Notes under the pieces: generated by a model | What the model saw: the letters and a program-made list of their open reading frames with translations, nothing else | What the model was told of the DNA's origin: nothing | Databases searched by the model: none | Part shown: positions 3,049 through 32,765 of the stretch, one piece after another | How positions within the stretch are numbered: position 1 is the stretch's first letter | Layout of the letters: each line of letters opens with the position of its first letter | Made by a program: the position numbers and the translations under genes | Assembly (NCBI RefSeq): GCF_014773395.1 | Contig: NZ_JACXAF010000021.1 | Span: forward strand, 1 to 64,000 | DNA length: 64,000 bases | Source: Neiella litorisoli | Lineage (GTDB): Bacteria > Pseudomonadota > Gammaproteobacteria > Enterobacterales > Neiellaceae | Direction: 5' to 3'

Positions 3049-6000
3049 ATGACGTCAGTGCTACGTTGGTGGGTTAAAAATCCTATCGCGGCAAATTTGT
3101 CCATGGTCGCGTTGGTTGTTGCAGGCTTACTGAGTTACTTCTTTGCGGTTGAAAAAGAGCCATTTCCAATGGTTAAACAACCCATTATGGATATTCGCAT
3201 GTCGTGGCCGGGAGCGGGGCCGAAAGACATTGAAGAGCAAATCCTGATTCGTTTCGAGCAAGCCCTGAAAAGCGTTGAAGATGTCAAAAGCATCACCTCG
3301 GTGGCGCGCGAGGGGTCTGCATCGGTGAGGGTTGAAGGTAAAGAGAGTGTTGATAAAAGGCAGTTTGCTGACAGCGTGAGGGAGAAAATCAACGCGGTGA
3401 ACTCGCTTCCGGGGGACGCTGACCGGCCGCGAGTCAGTGAGCGAGTCAATCGCCAAGAAATGATGCGCATTGCCCTGCATGGCAATGCCGACCGACAAAC
3501 GCTCAATCGACTTGCGGTGCAAATCCAAAATGAAATTGCCGCGTTACCGCTAATTTCAACCGTACGGCTTGAAGGCGCGAATAAAGAAGAGGTGTCGATC
3601 GAAATTTCTGAGCAGAAAATGCGCCTCTACAACCTCAGTTTTGATGATATTGCCACAGCCATTCGAAACAGCTCATTAAACTCATCGTCAGGCATGATCC
3701 GCGATGATGCCGGCAGCTTGCAGTTGACCATTCGCAGCCGAGCCGAGCATCAGCAGCAGTTTGAAGACATTGTGCTGCGCCGCTCAGCCAATGGTGCCAC
3801 GCTTTATCTGGGGGATGTCGCTGACGTCAAATACGATGTGCAGGAAGCCCGCAATCGCTCGGTATTCGATGGTGAGCAAGCGGTGTTGATTGAAGTGATG
3901 AACGCCGATTACATGAACATCGTCAAAATGAGCGCCAGCGTCGAGGAATATCTGGCCGAAAAACGGCGACAATTGCCGCCGACACTCAAGCTGACGCTGT
4001 GGGAAAACTGGAACGATTCCTATCAGTCTCGGTTATCGACGATTTTAAATAGCGCTACCTCCGGCTTAATTCTGGTGTTCATTTTATTGATGCTGTTTTT
4101 ACAGCGCACAGTGGCACTTTGGGTTAGTGTTGGTATTGGCGTGGCGTTCGCCGCATCGTTTGCACTGTTGCCGAGCGTCGATGTGTCGTTGAACATGCTG
4201 TCGTTGTTCGCCTTTTTGATGGTGATTGGCATTGTGGTTGATGATGCCATCGTCATCGGCGAGAGCATTCATCTAGCCAACGAGTCGGGCTTAGAAGGCG
4301 ACGAAGCGGCTATCAAAGGAGTCAGCGAGGTCGCCAAGCCCGTATTGTTTGGGGTACTCACGACCATGGTGGTGTTTGCGCCAATGGCTTTTCTGCCAGG
4401 CAGCACCGCCGAGTATACGCGCTCGATTTCCTTAGTGGTGGTGTTGGCACTGGCGTTCTCACTCTTTGAAGCGCTGCTCATTTTGCCATCCCATTTGCGG
4501 CATTTAAAAAGCAAACCAACAGCGGCTCAACCATCCGTATTCAGTCGTCTACAAATGCGGATTGCCAATGGCATGCAGTATGTGGCGAACTTTGTCTATG
4601 GTCGCTTTATTGTCTGGCTGCTGGCCCACAAATATGGCGTTATTACGGCGTTTATCGGGATGTTGCTGATCAGCATGAGCTTGCTCAACAACAACTATGT
4701 GCAGCAGTCATTCATGCCGCAAATCAGCGGCGACAAAATTCGTCTGATGGTGACCTTGCCAGCCAATACCAGCTATGAGCGCACCGAGCAGGTGCTGCAG
4801 CAAATCAACCGCGGCAGCGAGCAACTGATTGACGAGGTTGAGGCCAGCGGCGGCGAATTAGTGGAGCATGTCTACAACCAGGTTTGGGGCACTCGGGTGA
4901 TGAGTGAGCTGAAATTGGTTGGGGCCGAACAGCGCGCCATGACCATTGAGCAGGCATCCGACACTCTTCAAGCTTTAATTGGCGATATTCCCGATGCTGA
5001 GGAAATCGAATTTCGTTCAAGCATGAATACCAGTTCGCCGAAAATCAGCTTCCGGATTCGCTCCAACGATACCGATGCCTTGCGACTGGCGCTGGATGAT
5101 TTAAAACATCATCTGACCAAGTATCAGGGCATTAATCTGGTGCGAGATTCAATGGACAAAGGCAGCACCGAAATGGTGTTCGCATTGAAGCCGGGTGCAG
5201 AGCAACTCGGCATCACCTTGCGCGATGTGTCGAAGCAGGTCAAACAGGCTTATTTTGGTCAGGAAGTCGATCGGCTGGCGACTTGGACCGGTGATGTTCG
5301 GGTCAAAGTGCGCTACTCCAAACAAGAGCGTGAATCGATTGATACCTTGCAGCACATGCGAATTCGTACCAAAGACGGCCGTGAAATTCCGCTATTGAGC
5401 GTGGTTGATGTCAGCGAGCGCCCCGGCGTCCAGCGTATCTACCGACGCGATGGCGAAAAAGTGGCCACGTTACGAGCCGAATACGGTGGTACCGACCAAT
5501 ACAGTGTCAATCGCGATATTCGTGACAACTTCATTCCTGAATGGCAAAAACGTCATCCGGAAGTAAAGTTTGGCTCTGGTGATCGCGGTCAGGAGCGCGA
5601 TGATTTCATTGCCACTGTCATGCGTTTAGAAGGCTTGGCGTTGTTGGTGTCCTACATGCTGATGGCCATCGCATTTCGCTCCTATATGCAACCGCTGCTG
5701 ATTCTATCGGCGGTGCCGTTTGCCTTTATGGGGGCGATTGCTGGCCATTTGCTTCATGGCACTGTGTATTCGATGTTTTCCATGCTGGGCATCTTAGCCG
5801 CTGCAGGAGTGGTGATTAACGATAATTTGGTGTTGGTTGATGCCATCAACCGGCTCCGCGCAAAGGGGCAGAGCGCAGTAGATGCTGTGATTGCCGCCGG
5901 TAAGCTGCGTTTCCGGCCTATTGTGCTGACCTCACTGACGACCTTTATTGGCTTGCTGCCGATGATGTGGGCCAATAGTGTGCAGGCTAAGTTTTTGGTG

Positions 6001-27711: not shown

Positions 27712-28257
27712 ATGCTCATTATTTCCGATATCCATGGCTCTATTACTGCGCTGGATAAGGCCCTTGCTTACAAAGCTTCGCTCGGAGCTAGGCAAATCAT
27801 CTTACTGGGAGATTTGCTTAATCATGGCCCAAGAAATCCAATTCCTGACGGTTATCAGGCAGCGGCGGTAGCAGCAAGGCTCAACCAATATGCCGACTGC
27901 ATTGTGGCGGTTCGCGGCAATTGCGATAGCGAAGTGGACCAGATGCTGTGCGATTTTCCATTATTGGCTGAATACAACTGGCTTATTATCAACGGCAAGC
28001 GTCTGTGTTTGAGTCATGGCCACACCTATAATCCTGAGCAGTTACCGCCGTTAGCGGCTGGTGAAGGCTTTGTATTTGGCCATACTCATCTGCCATTGGC
28101 TGAGCATCAGGACGGCGTCCTGCTGTTTAACCCAGGCTCAATCACCATACCCAAAGGCGGTCATCCAGCGAGTTTGGGCCATTATGACGGGAAATCGTTT
28201 CGTGTCATTGAGCTGGATTCAGGTGAGGTATTGAAATCATGTCGATGGCCAGCATGA
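27712..28257 (+). CDS. yfcE: Metallophosphodiesterase YfcE
   Basis: Calcineurin-like phosphodiesterase of 181 aa. The five metal-ligand blocks are all present: SDIHGS, LGDLLNHGPRN, VRGNCDSEVDQM, LSHGH, and FGHTHLP, followed by FNPGSITIPKGG. Long stretches match E. coli YfcE (for example GNCDSEVDQML), so the name is secure. The natural substrate is unknown; the E. coli enzyme is manganese-dependent and active on artificial phosphodiesters. It is divergent to tamA. Confidence 0.93.
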   Translation: MLIISDIHGSITALDKALAYKASLGARQIILLGDLLNHGPRNPIPDGYQAAAVAARLNQYADCIVAVRGNCDSEVDQMLCDFPLLAEYNWLIINGKRLCLSHGHTYNPEQLPPLAAGEGFVFGHTHLPLAEHQDGVLLFNPGSITIPKGGHPASLGHYDGKSFRVIELDSGEVLKSCRWPA

Positions 28258-28282
28258 ACGAGATGATGGCGGCTGACAATGG

Positions 28283-28314
28283 TTCAGTTTCGGTTAAGTT
28301 AACTGTCATAAGAT
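28283..28314 (+). promoter_or_regulatory. PhoP-box-like promoter 1 (no downstream ORF)
   Basis: TTCAG (28283-28287), N6 (TTTCGG), TTAAG (28294-28298), 10 bases, TAAGAT (28309-28314). It has the same spacing as the promoters before oprH and phoP. No coding sequence follows; a terminator lies about 104 bases beyond the -10. Confidence 0.65.
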
Positions 28315-28320
28315 GTAATC

Positions 28321-28441
28321 ACTGTTTTCACAGAGCCATCAAATTTGCAGGTTTGATTCGCTTAGAAACGCAGTAATCCCTCCCCTTCGAATAGTAGAAT
28401 TGGACTTATTTTTAGTCAGCCCGGCAATAGCCGGGCTTTTT
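28321..28441 (+). ncRNA. Candidate PhoP-activated small RNA
   Basis: Predicted transcript of about 120 nt from promoter 1 (start near 28321) to the intrinsic terminator (28418-28440). There is no ATG or likely reading frame. Foldable parts are CTGT/ACAG at the 5' end, ATCAAA/TTTGAT at 28338-28357 and GACT/AGTC before the terminator. Between them is an open C-rich stretch (CCCTCCCC, 28378-28385) complementary to Shine-Dalgarno sequences, and an AU-rich segment (TTATTTTT) that could bind Hfq. The alternative is a yfcE 3' untranslated region. Confidence 0.5.
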
Positions 28442-28447
28442 GTTTTT
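28418..28447 (+). terminator. Intrinsic terminator
   Basis: AGCCCGGC (28418-28425), loop AATA, GCCGGGCT (28430-28437), then a long T tract interrupted by one G. Very strong. It lies 160 bases after yfcE and ends the candidate small RNA. Confidence 0.92.
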
Positions 28448-28492
28448 GTACTGTTTTTCAATCTGTTAATTGTTTGTTTGGGCAGTTTCTTA

Positions 28493-28524
28493 TTCAGTTT
28501 CGGTTCAGCATTGGTTGATAGCTT
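28493..28524 (+). promoter_or_regulatory. PhoP-box-like promoter 2 (oprH)
   Basis: TTCAG (28493-28497), N6 (TTTCGG), TTCAG (28504-28508), 10 bases, TAGCTT (28519-28524). Transcription would start near 28531, leaving a 31-base leader to the oprH-like ATG with an AAGGA ribosome site. Confidence 0.68.
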
Positions 28525-28561
28525 AGCGGCGCGTTAACAAAACTCCTCGAAAGGAATAATT

Positions 28562-29155
28562 ATGAATAAGAAAACTCTATTGGCTTTAGTTCCAGCGTCT
28601 TTGCTCACCGCTCCTGTGCTTGCCAACGATTCAACCAATGACTGGTTTGTCGGTGGTGCCATCAATAAGCAAATGTCTAAAAGTGAACAAACACCGGGCG
28701 CTGTACCAGCCGATACATCTTCGTTTGATCAAAAGGATCGAGACTGGGGTTATGAAGTAAAAGCGGGTCGTTATTTTGGCGACAATGACCAGCATCGGAC
28801 CACGATGACTTACACCGAAGCTGATGGTGGCAGTAAAACCGGTGATTACAAACAGAAAAACATTTTGGCGTCGTACGACTACATGTACAGCCTGACTGAT
28901 GACAACAAATGGCGAGCATTTGGTGGTGTCACCGCCGGTATGGCCAATACCCGTTACACCGGTGCTGGCAGCTCCAATGATTTTGTCTATGGTGCTCAGG
29001 CGGGTCTGAACTATCGTATCAATCAAAGTTGGGAAACAGAGATTGGCTATCGTTATCTGAAACAAGACTATTCCGGCACCAATGCCAATACCGGTGAAAA
29101 TTTTGAATTAGACCGGACCGAGCAGGTATTCATGGGCGTCAACTACCGTTTCTAA
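28562..29155 (+). CDS. oprH: OprH-like eight-stranded outer-membrane barrel protein
   Basis: Small outer-membrane porin-like protein of 197 aa with a signal peptide (MNKKTLLALVPASLLTAPVLA). The mature part is a run of amphipathic strands, with KQKNILASYDYMY, YGAQAGLNY, EIGYRYLK and a terminal GVNYRF ending in Phe. I recall matching segments in Pseudomonas OprH (QNLLGSYD, GYRYL, LGANYKF). In Pseudomonas, OprH is induced by low magnesium, binds lipopolysaccharide and is encoded just before phoPQ, which is exactly the layout here. Its own PhoP-box-like promoter supports that role. Barrel call is firm; the OprH name is somewhat less so. Confidence 0.78.
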   Translation: MNKKTLLALVPASLLTAPVLANDSTNDWFVGGAINKQMSKSEQTPGAVPADTSSFDQKDRDWGYEVKAGRYFGDNDQHRTTMTYTEADGGSKTGDYKQKNILASYDYMYSLTDDNKWRAFGGVTAGMANTRYTGAGSSNDFVYGAQAGLNYRINQSWETEIGYRYLKQDYSGTNANTGENFELDRTEQVFMGVNYRF

Positions 29156-29577
29156 GCCTATCACTTAATACTCTCTTGTTCTGTTGAGCCGGTTGATGCC
29201 AATCAACCCGGTTCAACCGTGTCGATTCGCATGGATGCGAGCGGGCGCTCATTTCTCCTCATATTCTCACCAAATCGCTAGTTTTATGGATGTGCCATGC
29301 GGCACTATAAGCGGCTTGCGACTGCACCTAAAGCTTGCTCTCTAAGTCTCCGAATTGCTGAAAAAAAGTTCAGTTTCTGTTCAGTCTGAATCGCTAATAT
29401 GGTTCGAGTTAAGTTAGCCAACTAACGGCTCATTGCAATGGCTTATTGCGACGTTTCGACCAACAGGCTCAAGACACCAGCTGCCGGAGGTTGCCTTTTA
29501 AGCTAACCTTGTCAATGACGCAATTCTGCTGATTGACCTGCTGCAGTCGCCGCTGTAACACAAAAGGTTTATAGAAC
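29156..29577. other. Region between oprH and phoP with hairpin and phoP leader
   Basis: A 15-bp imperfect hairpin (29183-29217, GTTGAGCCGG... with ...CCGGTTCAAC) follows oprH but has no U tract. PhoP-box-like promoter 3 is at 29369-29400. The phoP leader would be about 170 bases and contains a 22-codon frame at 29438-29506 without a clear ribosome site. The part at 29220-29368 shows nothing recognisable. Confidence 0.5.
29369..29400 (+). promoter_or_regulatory. PhoP-box-like promoter 3 (phoP autoregulation)
   Basis: TTCAG (29369-29373), N6 (TTTCTG), TTCAG (29380-29384), 10 bases, TAATAT (29395-29400). The repeat takes the place of the -35 element, as in PhoP-activated enteric promoters. It is the likely autoregulated promoter of phoPQ. 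Confidence 0.72.
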
Positions 29578-30246
29578 ATGCTCATACTGGTAGTAGAAGA
29601 CGATCCAATTTTAAATCACCATCTGACTGTGCAATTGCAGGACGCTGGCAATCAGGTCTATGCCGTGACCACGGTCAAAGATGCATTGTTTTTCGCCGAG
29701 CAGTACCCGATCGAGTTAGCGATTGTCGATTTGGGTTTACCCGATGGCGACGGCATTCAATTGATCAAAAAATTCCGCGCTCAAGAGCGCCCGTTCCCTG
29801 TTCTGATTTTAACTGCTCGCGCCAATTGGCAAGACAAAGTTGATGGCCTCAATGCTGGCGCCGATGACTATTTAGTGAAGCCATTCGAAGTGCCGGAGTT
29901 ACTGGCGCGACTGAACGCTTTGGTGCGCCGCAGTGCTGGTTATGTAAAAGCAGAAGTAAATTGTGCTGGCTTTACGTTAAACTTGTTAACCAAAGAGGTT
30001 TCGGTCGACGGTAACGTACTGGAGTTGACTGCATTCGAATATCAAATTTTGGAGTATTTTGTTCGTCATCCTGAACAAGTGGTATCCAAGCAACGCTTGA
30101 TTGATACCCTGTATCGAGACGGAGATGGCGACTCCAATACCATTGAGGTATTGATTAGTCGATTGCGTAAAAAGCTTGCCAATGTGTTACCTGAAGTCCC
30201 TATCAGTACCATTCGTGGTCAAGGATATCGGTTAATAAATACATGA
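29578..30246 (+). CDS. phoP: Response regulator PhoP (OmpR family)
   Basis: DNA-binding response regulator of 222 aa. The receiver domain (1-115) has the acidic pocket EDD at 7-9, phosphoacceptor D51 in IVDLGLPDGDG, LTAR and the conserved KPF. The winged-helix domain (about 128-222) shows LTAFEYQILEYFVR, VVSKQRLIDTLY, EVLISRLRKK and TIRGQGY. The blocks LTAFEY and RGQGY, as well as WQDKV and GADDY, match E. coli PhoP closely. It is co-translated with phoQ (ATGA overlap) and preceded by an oprH-like gene and PhoP-box-like repeats. Confidence 0.9.
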   Translation: MLILVVEDDPILNHHLTVQLQDAGNQVYAVTTVKDALFFAEQYPIELAIVDLGLPDGDGIQLIKKFRAQERPFPVLILTARANWQDKVDGLNAGADDYLVKPFEVPELLARLNALVRRSAGYVKAEVNCAGFTLNLLTKEVSVDGNVLELTAFEYQILEYFVRHPEQVVSKQRLIDTLYRDGDGDSNTIEVLISRLRKKLANVLPEVPISTIRGQGYRLINT

Positions 30247-31592
30247 AAACAAATGGATCTTTGTGGTTTCGAAACTTTCTCGTTTCGATGCTGATCATCA
30301 CTGCCGTGACGTTAGCGCTGGCCAACGTTTACTACAACGACAAGCAACAAAGTTTGGAGTTGGAGTACGGTAGCGACCTGCTTGAGCGCTTGCCGATGGT
30401 GATTGAAACCATGGTGACTCAAGGCGTTTCTTTTGAAAACACGGTTTCAGAGAAAATGCCGCTGCAAGGCTATATGGGCGCCTTATGTGATGATTATGGC
30501 GAAGTGATTTGGAAGTCTGTGCAGGCCAAAGCCTTCGAATTGAACGCACTTTGCCAACAAGTTCAGGGTAAAAGTAGTAGCGCCTTGACCATTCCGGTGC
30601 GAGTTGATGACAACAAATTGTTCTTCGCCCATGTCCTATCGGGCACTTTTAACGGCATCCGCGGTGACTTTGTCGCGCTGCGTGATGGCCAGGCTTACGA
30701 GCAATGGCGCGCCGAATCGGTGGAAAAAGCCCTGATCACCGTGATCTTGTTTTTGGTCGCCGCCGGAGTCGCCTTGTACATGACGTTTCGTTGGGCAATG
30801 CGGCCGCTAAAAACGCTGGAAACCGAGCTTCAGCAAGTCTCTGAGCAGAAACAAGTCACCCTTAACGAATCCTATCCTTATGAGTTAAAGCCTGTAGTGA
30901 CGGCCCTGAACAGTGTGATGGGCGAAAATATTCATCGCTCGCAACGTTATCGCCATAGCTTGAATGACTTGGCTCATAGCTTAAAAACGCGTCTCGCTGC
31001 GATGAATGTGGTATGTCAGGAAAATTCAATTGCGCCACATGTTCAAACTGAGCTGCTTAGCAACTTGAGTCAGATGAACGCGATGGTGCAATATCAGCTG
31101 AAACGCGGTTTGACCGGCCAGCAGGCATTAAATAAGCAATCGACCCCCTTACTTGAGATTGTCGATAACCTCCATCAGTTACTCGACAAAATATACGCGG
31201 ACAAGAAGATCGAGCTGGATAAGCGCATTTCCAAAGATGACGAGATCCCCATGGGGCGTGACGATCTGATGGAAGTGATGGGTAACTTGCTGGAAAACGG
31301 CTTCCGTTATGCCATCTCCAAATTACGCATCAGTCAGTTACCCTTGGCCAATGGTGGCGTCCAACTGCGAATTGAAGACGATGGCCCGGGTGTGACCGAA
31401 TCGCGCCGCGAGCAAGTGTTCCAGCGCGGCGTCCGATTAGATGAGAAACCAACAGGGCAGGGCATCGGGTTAGCCGTTTGTGCCGATATTGTTGAAAGCT
31501 ACCGCGGCGAAATTCGGATTGAAGATTCTGAGCTTGAAGGTGCCTGCTTTGTTATCGAGCTACCACCGGTCGAAGGCTGGTGGGATCAATAA
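30243..31592 (+). CDS. phoQ: Sensor histidine kinase PhoQ-like
   Basis: Membrane sensor kinase of 449 aa that would phosphorylate PhoP. Two membrane helices (about 13-28 and 160-180) flank a periplasmic sensor of about 130 residues; in PhoQ this domain senses magnesium, antimicrobial peptides and acidity. HAMP follows. The H-box is LAHSLKTRLA with phosphoacceptor H245; PhoQ and most kinases have Pro where Arg250 is found here. The ATPase domain has N (GNLLENGFRY), G1 (EDDGPGV) and G2 (GQGIGLAV). The periplasmic part is less acidic-clustered than in E. coli PhoQ, so the signal may differ. Confidence 0.87.
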   Translation: MKTNGSLWFRNFLVSMLIITAVTLALANVYYNDKQQSLELEYGSDLLERLPMVIETMVTQGVSFENTVSEKMPLQGYMGALCDDYGEVIWKSVQAKAFELNALCQQVQGKSSSALTIPVRVDDNKLFFAHVLSGTFNGIRGDFVALRDGQAYEQWRAESVEKALITVILFLVAAGVALYMTFRWAMRPLKTLETELQQVSEQKQVTLNESYPYELKPVVTALNSVMGENIHRSQRYRHSLNDLAHSLKTRLAAMNVVCQENSIAPHVQTELLSNLSQMNAMVQYQLKRGLTGQQALNKQSTPLLEIVDNLHQLLDKIYADKKIELDKRISKDDEIPMGRDDLMEVMGNLLENGFRYAISKLRISQLPLANGGVQLRIEDDGPGVTESRREQVFQRGVRLDEKPTGQGIGLAVCADIVESYRGEIRIEDSELEGACFVIELPPVEGWWDQ

Positions 31593-32535: not shown

Positions 32536-32564
32536 GCTTTATTAGTTAACTTAATTTTAAATTT

Positions 32565-32586
32565 CGGCCCGAATGGGCCGTTTTTT
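32565..32586 (+). terminator. Intrinsic terminator of dapB
   Basis: CGGCCC (32565-32570), loop GAAT, GGGCCG (32575-32580), followed by TTTTTT. It starts 30 bases after the dapB stop. Confidence 0.88.
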
Positions 32587-32620
32587 ATTTGAAAGCTTCG
32601 TTTATTGAAGTTTTTTAAAA

Positions 32621-32655
32621 TTGCCGTGGACGGCAAACAGTTTTTGCTCTAGAAT
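32621..32655 (+). promoter_or_regulatory. carAB promoter with palindromic operator over the -35
   Basis: TGGACG (32627-32632), 17 bases, TAGAAT (32650-32655). A perfect dyad TTGCCGT-GG-ACGGCAA (32621-32636) covers the -35 element, so a dimeric repressor could block RNA polymerase here. The dyad does not match the ArgR or PurR consensus that I know for E. coli carAB. Confidence 0.55.
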
Positions 32656-32689
32656 GCGTTCAATTTGCCAGCACAAAGGCAAAGAGGGA

Positions 32690-32729
32690 TAGATAGAAGT
32701 GTCATAAGGCGTTCTGCCGCTTCTATCTA
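32690..32729 (+). other. Hairpin in the carA leader
   Basis: TAGATAGAAG (32690-32699) pairs with CTTCTATCTA (32720-32729) in the untranslated leader, ending 37 bases before the start codon. No U tract follows, so it is not a classical terminator. A smaller hairpin (TTTGCC/GGCAAA) precedes it. Confidence 0.5.
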
Positions 32730-32765
32730 CGACATGAACAGCTGACCACAACTGTGGAGGTTATC

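Follow-up and report, generated by a model that had tools for sequence, protein, structure and literature searches.

We consider it likely that the intergenic region between yfcE and oprH in Neiella litorisoli encodes an independently transcribed small RNA of the PhoP regulon, which probably acts in trans by pairing through its linker. The region lies in a window of 64,000 nt (positions 1 to 64,000 of contig NZ_JACXAF010000021.1), and all positions given here refer to this window. A first-pass annotation had described a PhoP-box-like promoter followed by a strong terminator without an open reading frame (ORF) in between, had proposed a PhoP-driven small RNA and had called for its conservation in relatives to be examined. 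The observation was confirmed and a PhoP-driven small RNA is supported: a box with a TAAGAT hexamer, no plausible ORF and a strong terminator are present, the box resembles that of Pseudomonas aeruginosa with the spacing known from Salmonella, and the three Neiella species have conserved the box, its spacing, the predicted 5' end, the hairpin and the terminator.

Organization of the locus

The gene order in Neiella is yfcE, small RNA, oprH, phoP, phoQ and dapB, with the small RNA gene located between yfcE and oprH in all three Neiella genomes examined (N. litorisoli, N. marina J221 and N. holothuriorum; Table 1). The PhoP and PhoQ homologues score under the curated NCBIfam cut-offs (336 and 497 bits, respectively), and the regulator finds its closest structure in the PDB in 2pkx, a receiver domain of E. 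coli PhoP. The oprH-like protein has no match in NCBIfam and is named oprH because of its fold (a beta-barrel domain), its box and the gene order. A family member of another genus (G004), which lacks the small RNA, was used for comparison. Two Paraferrimonas loci carry a tandem pair of oprH-like genes preceding phoP (L036:2444-3817 and L031:2508-3800), and in P. haliotis (L036) the second of these genes lies downstream of an exact PhoP-box pattern at 3167. A scan of viral contigs with OprH gave no matches and was uninformative.

Table 1. Features of the yfcE-phoQ region, with positions in the window
Feature	Position	Strand	Remarks
yfcE-family phosphodiesterase gene, upstream of the small RNA	27712..28257	+	NCBIfam PRK09453 and yfcE, both above cut-off
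PhoP box of the small RNA, GGTTCA-N5-GGTTAA	28281..28297	+	half-sites GGTTCA 28281-28286 and GGTTAA 28292-28297
-10 hexamer of the small RNA, TAAGAT	28309..28314	+	11 nt 3' of the box
Predicted small RNA	28321..28447	+	predicted 5' end 28321 +/-1; predicted 3' end about 28443-28447; 123-127 nt
5' domain, outer stem CUGU...GCAG around a covarying 8-bp hairpin (28338-28357)	28322..28373	+	loop UGCA; closing U-G pair constant
Mostly open linker AAUCCCUCCCCUUCGAAUA... plus U-rich AUUUUU adjoining the terminator	28375..28417	+	accessibility; conservation
Intrinsic terminator, tail UUUUUGUUUUU	28418..28447	+	8-bp stem 28418-28437
Separate PhoP box and -10 (TAGCTT) of oprH	28492..28524	+	
oprH-like outer-membrane beta-barrel gene	28562..29155	+	Pfam PF13505; 66% identical in G004
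PhoP box and -10 (TAATAT) of phoP	29368..29400	+	
phoP and phoQ homologues	29578..31592	+	NCBIfam best matches PhoP (239 bits) and PhoQ (183 bits, residues 177-437)

A PhoP-type promoter precedes the predicted small RNA

The box of the small RNA matches the P. aeruginosa PhoP box consensus GTTCAGNNNNNRTTCAG, as given in two reports (PMC3156716, PMC7916210), save for an A instead of a C in the second half (GTTAAG). At 28283-28298 it is 94% identical to the oprH box (28493-28508), which lies 210 nt downstream, and its equivalent in N. holothuriorum reads GATTCAGTTTGAGTTCAG. The distance to the -10 hexamer agrees with the architecture I promoters of Salmonella, which are described as having a PhoP box that overlaps the place of the -35 hexamer, at a distance of 12 nt or, in yrbL, 11 nt (PMC3335776). 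Judged by its letters, the box thus stands at an activating distance from the -10 hexamer. The spacing is equal at the small RNA, oprH and phoP in all three Neiella, and the three N. holothuriorum promoters hold it despite altered letters. A sigma-70 consensus scan made no promoter call at the start of the small RNA and found no -35 hexamer, as expected for an activator-dependent promoter in which the PhoP box substitutes for the -35; between 27000 and 30000, sigma-70 promoters were found at chance level (four versus 4.2 expected).

A search pattern (GTTCAGN5GTTMAGN10TANNNT) with at most two mismatches hits exactly three sites on both strands of the window, namely 28282, 28492 (oprH) and 29368 (phoP), although these matches are not independent since these are the boxes from which the pattern was derived. 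When at most one mismatch is allowed, the N. litorisoli genome contains nine matches versus two for the reversed control; three of the nine belong to this locus and the other six are independent. Under the same threshold N. holothuriorum, J221 and G004 have eight, seven and six matches (reversed pattern: two, one and none, respectively). The family genomes G005, G003 and G006 have no pattern match (reversed controls one, none and none) and no relative of the phoP of the window that reaches E 1e-60.

We scanned the 420 nt downstream of 30 pattern sites in four genomes and found a terminator before the next gene solely at the three copies of the small RNA; two further terminator calls fall inside the ORF that comes next, and at a few sites no gene is clearly recognizable. 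In other genera 50 phoP loci were scanned (L017-L065 and L066), of which 11 contain a box-like site with at most two mismatches. No PhoP-driven RNA was found at these 50 loci: all 11 sites precede an ORF of at least 184 aa, and both terminator calls lie inside the ORF after the box. Taken together, we strongly infer that the predicted small RNA is under PhoP control.

Predicted transcript and fold

The plus strand between 28321 and 28450 contains no ATG and no GTG. Five TTG codons are present, two of which open closed frames of three and seven codons, while the frame from 28400 crosses the terminator (45 aa) and the last two lie at or in the tail. No ORF of at least 50 aa touches 28258-28561. 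By sequence only, the element therefore reads as a discrete noncoding transcript with its own terminator. The latter has a predicted stability of -16.6 kcal/mol (-14.4 kcal/mol in the N. holothuriorum version) and is followed by TTTTTGTTTTT.

The predicted fold of 28321-28447 reaches -36.1 kcal/mol (z -3.58), which was equaled by none of 200 shuffles. Without the terminator the z-score is -1.35 (18 of 200 shuffles as good) and in N. holothuriorum -1.25 (26 of 200). Stability was rejected as proof of the 5' fold because the fold without terminator is ordinary, and covariation was used in its place. RNAalifold returns the same helices and adds a 4-bp hairpin (GACU/AGUC) that would expose AUUUUU in its loop directly before the terminator.

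A 5' stem-loop, a mostly open linker, a U-rich box and a U-tailed terminator make up the anatomy of Hfq-dependent trans-acting small RNAs, and an Hfq gene was found in all four genomes tested. By this anatomy, the linker is likely the seed region and AUUUUU the contact for Hfq.

Conservation and covariation

The small RNA is identical to its N. marina J221 counterpart at 126 of 127 positions (body 96/97; 28377-28417 41/41; terminator and tail 30/30). The lone difference is at 28334, where G replaces A and an A-U pair of the predicted fold becomes G-U. For the surrounding sequences we counted 38/40 identities in the promoter, 9/26 in the gap between yfcE and the box, 397/546 (73%) in the yfcE CDS, 35/42 in the spacer behind the terminator, 510/594 in the oprH CDS and 135/219 in the gap between oprH and phoP. 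As a background, 127-nt test windows (step 10, n = 364) were taken outside ORFs of at least 100 aa and compared with J221; those with at least 126 identities correspond to tRNAs, the S15 leader with its 89-aa ORF, a region upstream of carA and the small RNA. Coding windows have a mean of 103/127 identities and three out of 1048 reach 126.

The region upstream of carA (32561-32717) is noncoding and lies 5' of a CDS starting at 32754 (Pfam CPSase_sm_chain). Four test windows in this region match J221 at 126 or more of 127 positions, a conservation like that of tRNAs, and the region is perhaps a regulated carAB promoter or leader.

N. holothuriorum is more informative for structure, with 59 of 98 positions of the RNA body identical, while UUCGAAUA and AUUUUU are invariant across the three Neiella species. 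Four out of eight pairs of the hairpin at 28338-28357 are doubly compensated (U-A to G-C, C-G to U-A, A-U to G-C and U-G to G-C) and none is broken. The terminator contains one double compensatory change (G-C to A-U). Over the whole named structure, 5 of 20 pairs are doubly changed and 60 of 60 cells are paired, in what is in effect a comparison of two sequences, as N. litorisoli and J221 differ at one base, and with a structure taken from the folds of these same sequences. Either value is reached by 2 of 500 shuffles, and the count of further pair types by 46 of 500. Sliding the partners by one to three columns leaves 27-48% paired and no double changes. The comparison demonstrates conservation of the element, of its predicted structure and of its putative promoter, and supports a separate, structured and probably Hfq-binding small RNA of the PhoP regulon.

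Distribution of the small RNA

A covariance model of the small RNA gives strong matches in the three Neiella alone (E 4e-29, 7e-29 and 3e-25). Among seven genomes of the family no clear homologue was found in the four that are not Neiella (next best E 0.077), nor was one found beyond Neiella among 295 genomes of the order, the family included, under stricter filters (next best 0.001). In total, 51 of these 295 genomes, the three Neiella included, have some model match at E<=0.1; the weak matches outside Neiella (L104-L122) are expected by chance at this number of genomes. Apart from the Neiella locus, a DNA search of 59 genomes picked up nothing but short matches over the terminator, in four genomes.

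No Rfam 15 family reaches its gathering score on the small RNA. The best sub-threshold family, Trp_leader (27.5 bits versus a gathering score of 41), was rejected, as no leader peptide with Trp codons occurs among the frames of the window sequence; its score is probably driven by the terminator. Among the literature matches listed, no title or abstract opening reports this RNA or any Neiella small RNA.

A separate gene versus a part of the neighboring transcripts

Given its position, the element might instead be a PhoP-driven 5' leader or attenuator of oprH, that is, a long leader with a signal-controlled terminator in the manner of the mgtA leader. It is in sense orientation, immediately 5' of oprH, and has an intrinsic terminator at its end, an organization that is identical in the three Neiella, and like an mgtA-type leader it would place a PhoP promoter and an RNA leader 5' of a PhoP-regulated envelope gene (PMC3335776). 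In Neiella, however, the downstream gene has its own PhoP-box promoter past the terminator, and G004 has an oprH gene with a box (one base further from the -10) yet without the small RNA. In addition, no antiterminator was found: upstream pairing of the 5' arm of the terminator is weak, with three pairs in N. litorisoli (-4.3 kcal/mol) and five in N. holothuriorum (-4.6 kcal/mol), and the terminator persists in the fold of the read-through transcript. We regard a leader of oprH as unlikely.

The element could also be the end of the yfcE transcript, perhaps a small RNA processed from its 3' UTR, with the box being a coincidence. Both are on the same strand, the small RNA begins 63 nt 3' of the yfcE stop and the terminator probably ends yfcE transcription too. 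On the other hand, the genus has retained the box, its spacing and the -10 although the gap between yfcE and the box has diverged (9/26 and 5/23 identical), and yfcE itself is much less conserved than the small RNA. In G005, the contig that carries yfcE (contig 1) gave no model match at E<=10; G004 has neither the small RNA nor, at E 1e-15, a yfcE gene in its genome. An origin as a yfcE 3' UTR is thus very unlikely. Because oprH has its own box, because of the pattern in G004 and because no antiterminator was seen, an oprH leader or a yfcE end is less likely than a separate gene.

Candidate targets

The first-pass annotation had suggested that an open CCCTCCCC can mask Shine-Dalgarno sites, and that the small RNA can pair with the oprH ribosome-binding region and so might put an incoherent feed-forward brake on oprH. 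The predicted ensemble agrees for AATCCC, which is unpaired, and for the open CC, but the TCC in between is partly paired and the final TTC mostly paired. The pairing also exists in letters, CCCCTTCGAATAGTA with AACTCCTCGAAAGGA (-10.1 kcal/mol), over the oprH Shine-Dalgarno region in N. litorisoli and J221; yet it is no better than chance, as oprH ranks 10th among 40 genes of the window, equally good pairing arises in 247 of 300 column shuffles, and N. holothuriorum has no such complementary stretch upstream of its oprH. A brake on oprH therefore appears highly improbable. In the same control, 114 of 300 shuffles are as good for phoP and 233 of 300 for nptA. None of the candidates (oprH, phoP, nptA, an operon with a SprA-related gene and other PhoP-box genes) stands out against the controls run, with 35 ortholog pairs as the background for pairing and the other PhoP-box genes scored without shuffle control.

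The most suggestive target is the operon that encodes an 83-aa protein (MNSIHQSG...), for which Pfam has no match, together with a SprA-related protein (PF12118 in L099, the locus tested). It has a PhoP-box-like promoter in N. litorisoli, J221, N. holothuriorum and G004 (L099, L094, L080 and L091, respectively) and is a likely member of the PhoP regulon. The small RNA would repress it by pairing over the Shine-Dalgarno site. The same site (-19 to -4) is predicted to pair in an overlapping register in N. litorisoli, J221 and N. holothuriorum (-13.9, -13.9 and -13.3 kcal/mol), the raw energy sum would rank second beside the 35 ortholog pairs, and G004 has the gene and a box but neither the small RNA nor the complementary stretch. 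Against this, 56 of 300 column shuffles reach the energy sum (42 of these use a single site in both species), the C-rich linker suits any strong Shine-Dalgarno sequence, and with accessibility included the operon would rank seventh beside the 35 pairs. Repression of this operon is quite unlikely on balance, and we treat it as a lead, not as a result.

Two other genes were observed behind PhoP-box-like promoters. The first, just 3' of such a promoter in N. holothuriorum, J221 and G004, encodes a Na+/Pi cotransporter (PF02690 in L072, the copy tested; L082 and L079 look alike), which recalls the magnesium/phosphate link described for MgrR and PitA. The second is located behind one in N. litorisoli and J221 (L089 and L090) and encodes a 117-aa protein whose start resembles a signal sequence and for which Pfam gave no match when L089 was tested.

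Comparison with known PhoP-controlled RNAs

MgrR and PinT are the PhoP-induced small RNAs of enteric bacteria that are named in a review (PMC11825808). MgrR of E. coli is reported to depend on PhoP/PhoQ, to belong to Hfq class II and to regulate eptB and ygdQ (PMC6239178). According to that description, the Neiella RNA would resemble it as a PhoP-controlled small RNA of Hfq-type anatomy that probably tunes envelope genes. They differ in that MgrR is annotated as 98 nt long and is located between mgtT and dgcZ; its synteny (mgtS/mgtT, dgcZ) is not shared here, where yfcE and oprH are the neighbors. The lack of likeness to MgrR noted in the first-pass annotation was confirmed, since a search of the E. 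coli mgrR region (NC_000913 1619500-1626500) with the covariance model under default filters gave nothing at E<=10. On comparative evidence the small RNA is real and would join the class of PhoP-controlled small RNAs, without being homologous to MgrR as far as tested.

PinT of Salmonella is described as PhoP-activated with negative feedback through ugtL (PMC12838224), and as a PhoP-activated small RNA it may serve as a model for feedback on the PhoP regulon. It is 80 nt long (PMC12721325), whereas the Neiella RNA comes from a non-enteric genus and is encoded within the oprH-phoPQ locus; the two are set side by side here by description. Box (GTTCAG-N5-RTTCAG) and gene order are shared with P. 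aeruginosa, where oprH-phoP-phoQ is reported to form a single operon whose oprH promoter is bound by PhoP (PMC7916210); in Neiella, by contrast, there is a box for phoP itself, and oprH is preceded by the predicted small RNA gene. PhoP of P. aeruginosa is also reported to repress the small RNA rsmZ (PMC3156716), opposite in sign to the activation proposed here. A small RNA of P. putida whose over-expression raised oprH and phoP, according to its report (PMC7324555), was dismissed as a counterpart as it belongs to a different locus (PP_5401/PP_5402).

Proposed model

In the model that we favor, that of a separate small RNA gene, PhoP bound to its box (28281-28297) would take over the role of a -35 hexamer and recruit RNA polymerase to TAAGAT. 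Transcription would begin near 28321 and end at the terminator near 28443-28447. The RNA would then fold into a 5' stem-loop domain, a mostly open linker and the terminator, with the U-rich stretch beside the terminator available for Hfq. The linker (AAUCCCUCCCCUUCGAAUA) would most likely base-pair in trans with mRNAs of envelope or magnesium-response genes at their ribosome-binding sites, and such pairing would lower translation of the targets while PhoP is active. For Hfq binding, base pairing and repression we reason from the anatomy of the RNA only.

A possible, rather tentative extension is that the small RNA originated in Neiella, within the oprH-phoPQ locus itself, and acts back on the PhoP regulon at the post-transcriptional level, for instance at the SprA-related operon, as an independent counterpart of MgrR and PinT. 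Small RNAs supply transcriptional activators with a repressing arm, and, if this extension is true, PhoPQ repeatedly recruits unrelated small RNAs as such an arm. An unrelated PhoP-box small RNA beside phoPQ in a marine genus would suggest that the arm has been re-invented lineage by lineage, and Neiella, with three related genomes and one locus, would offer a compact system for experimental target finding.
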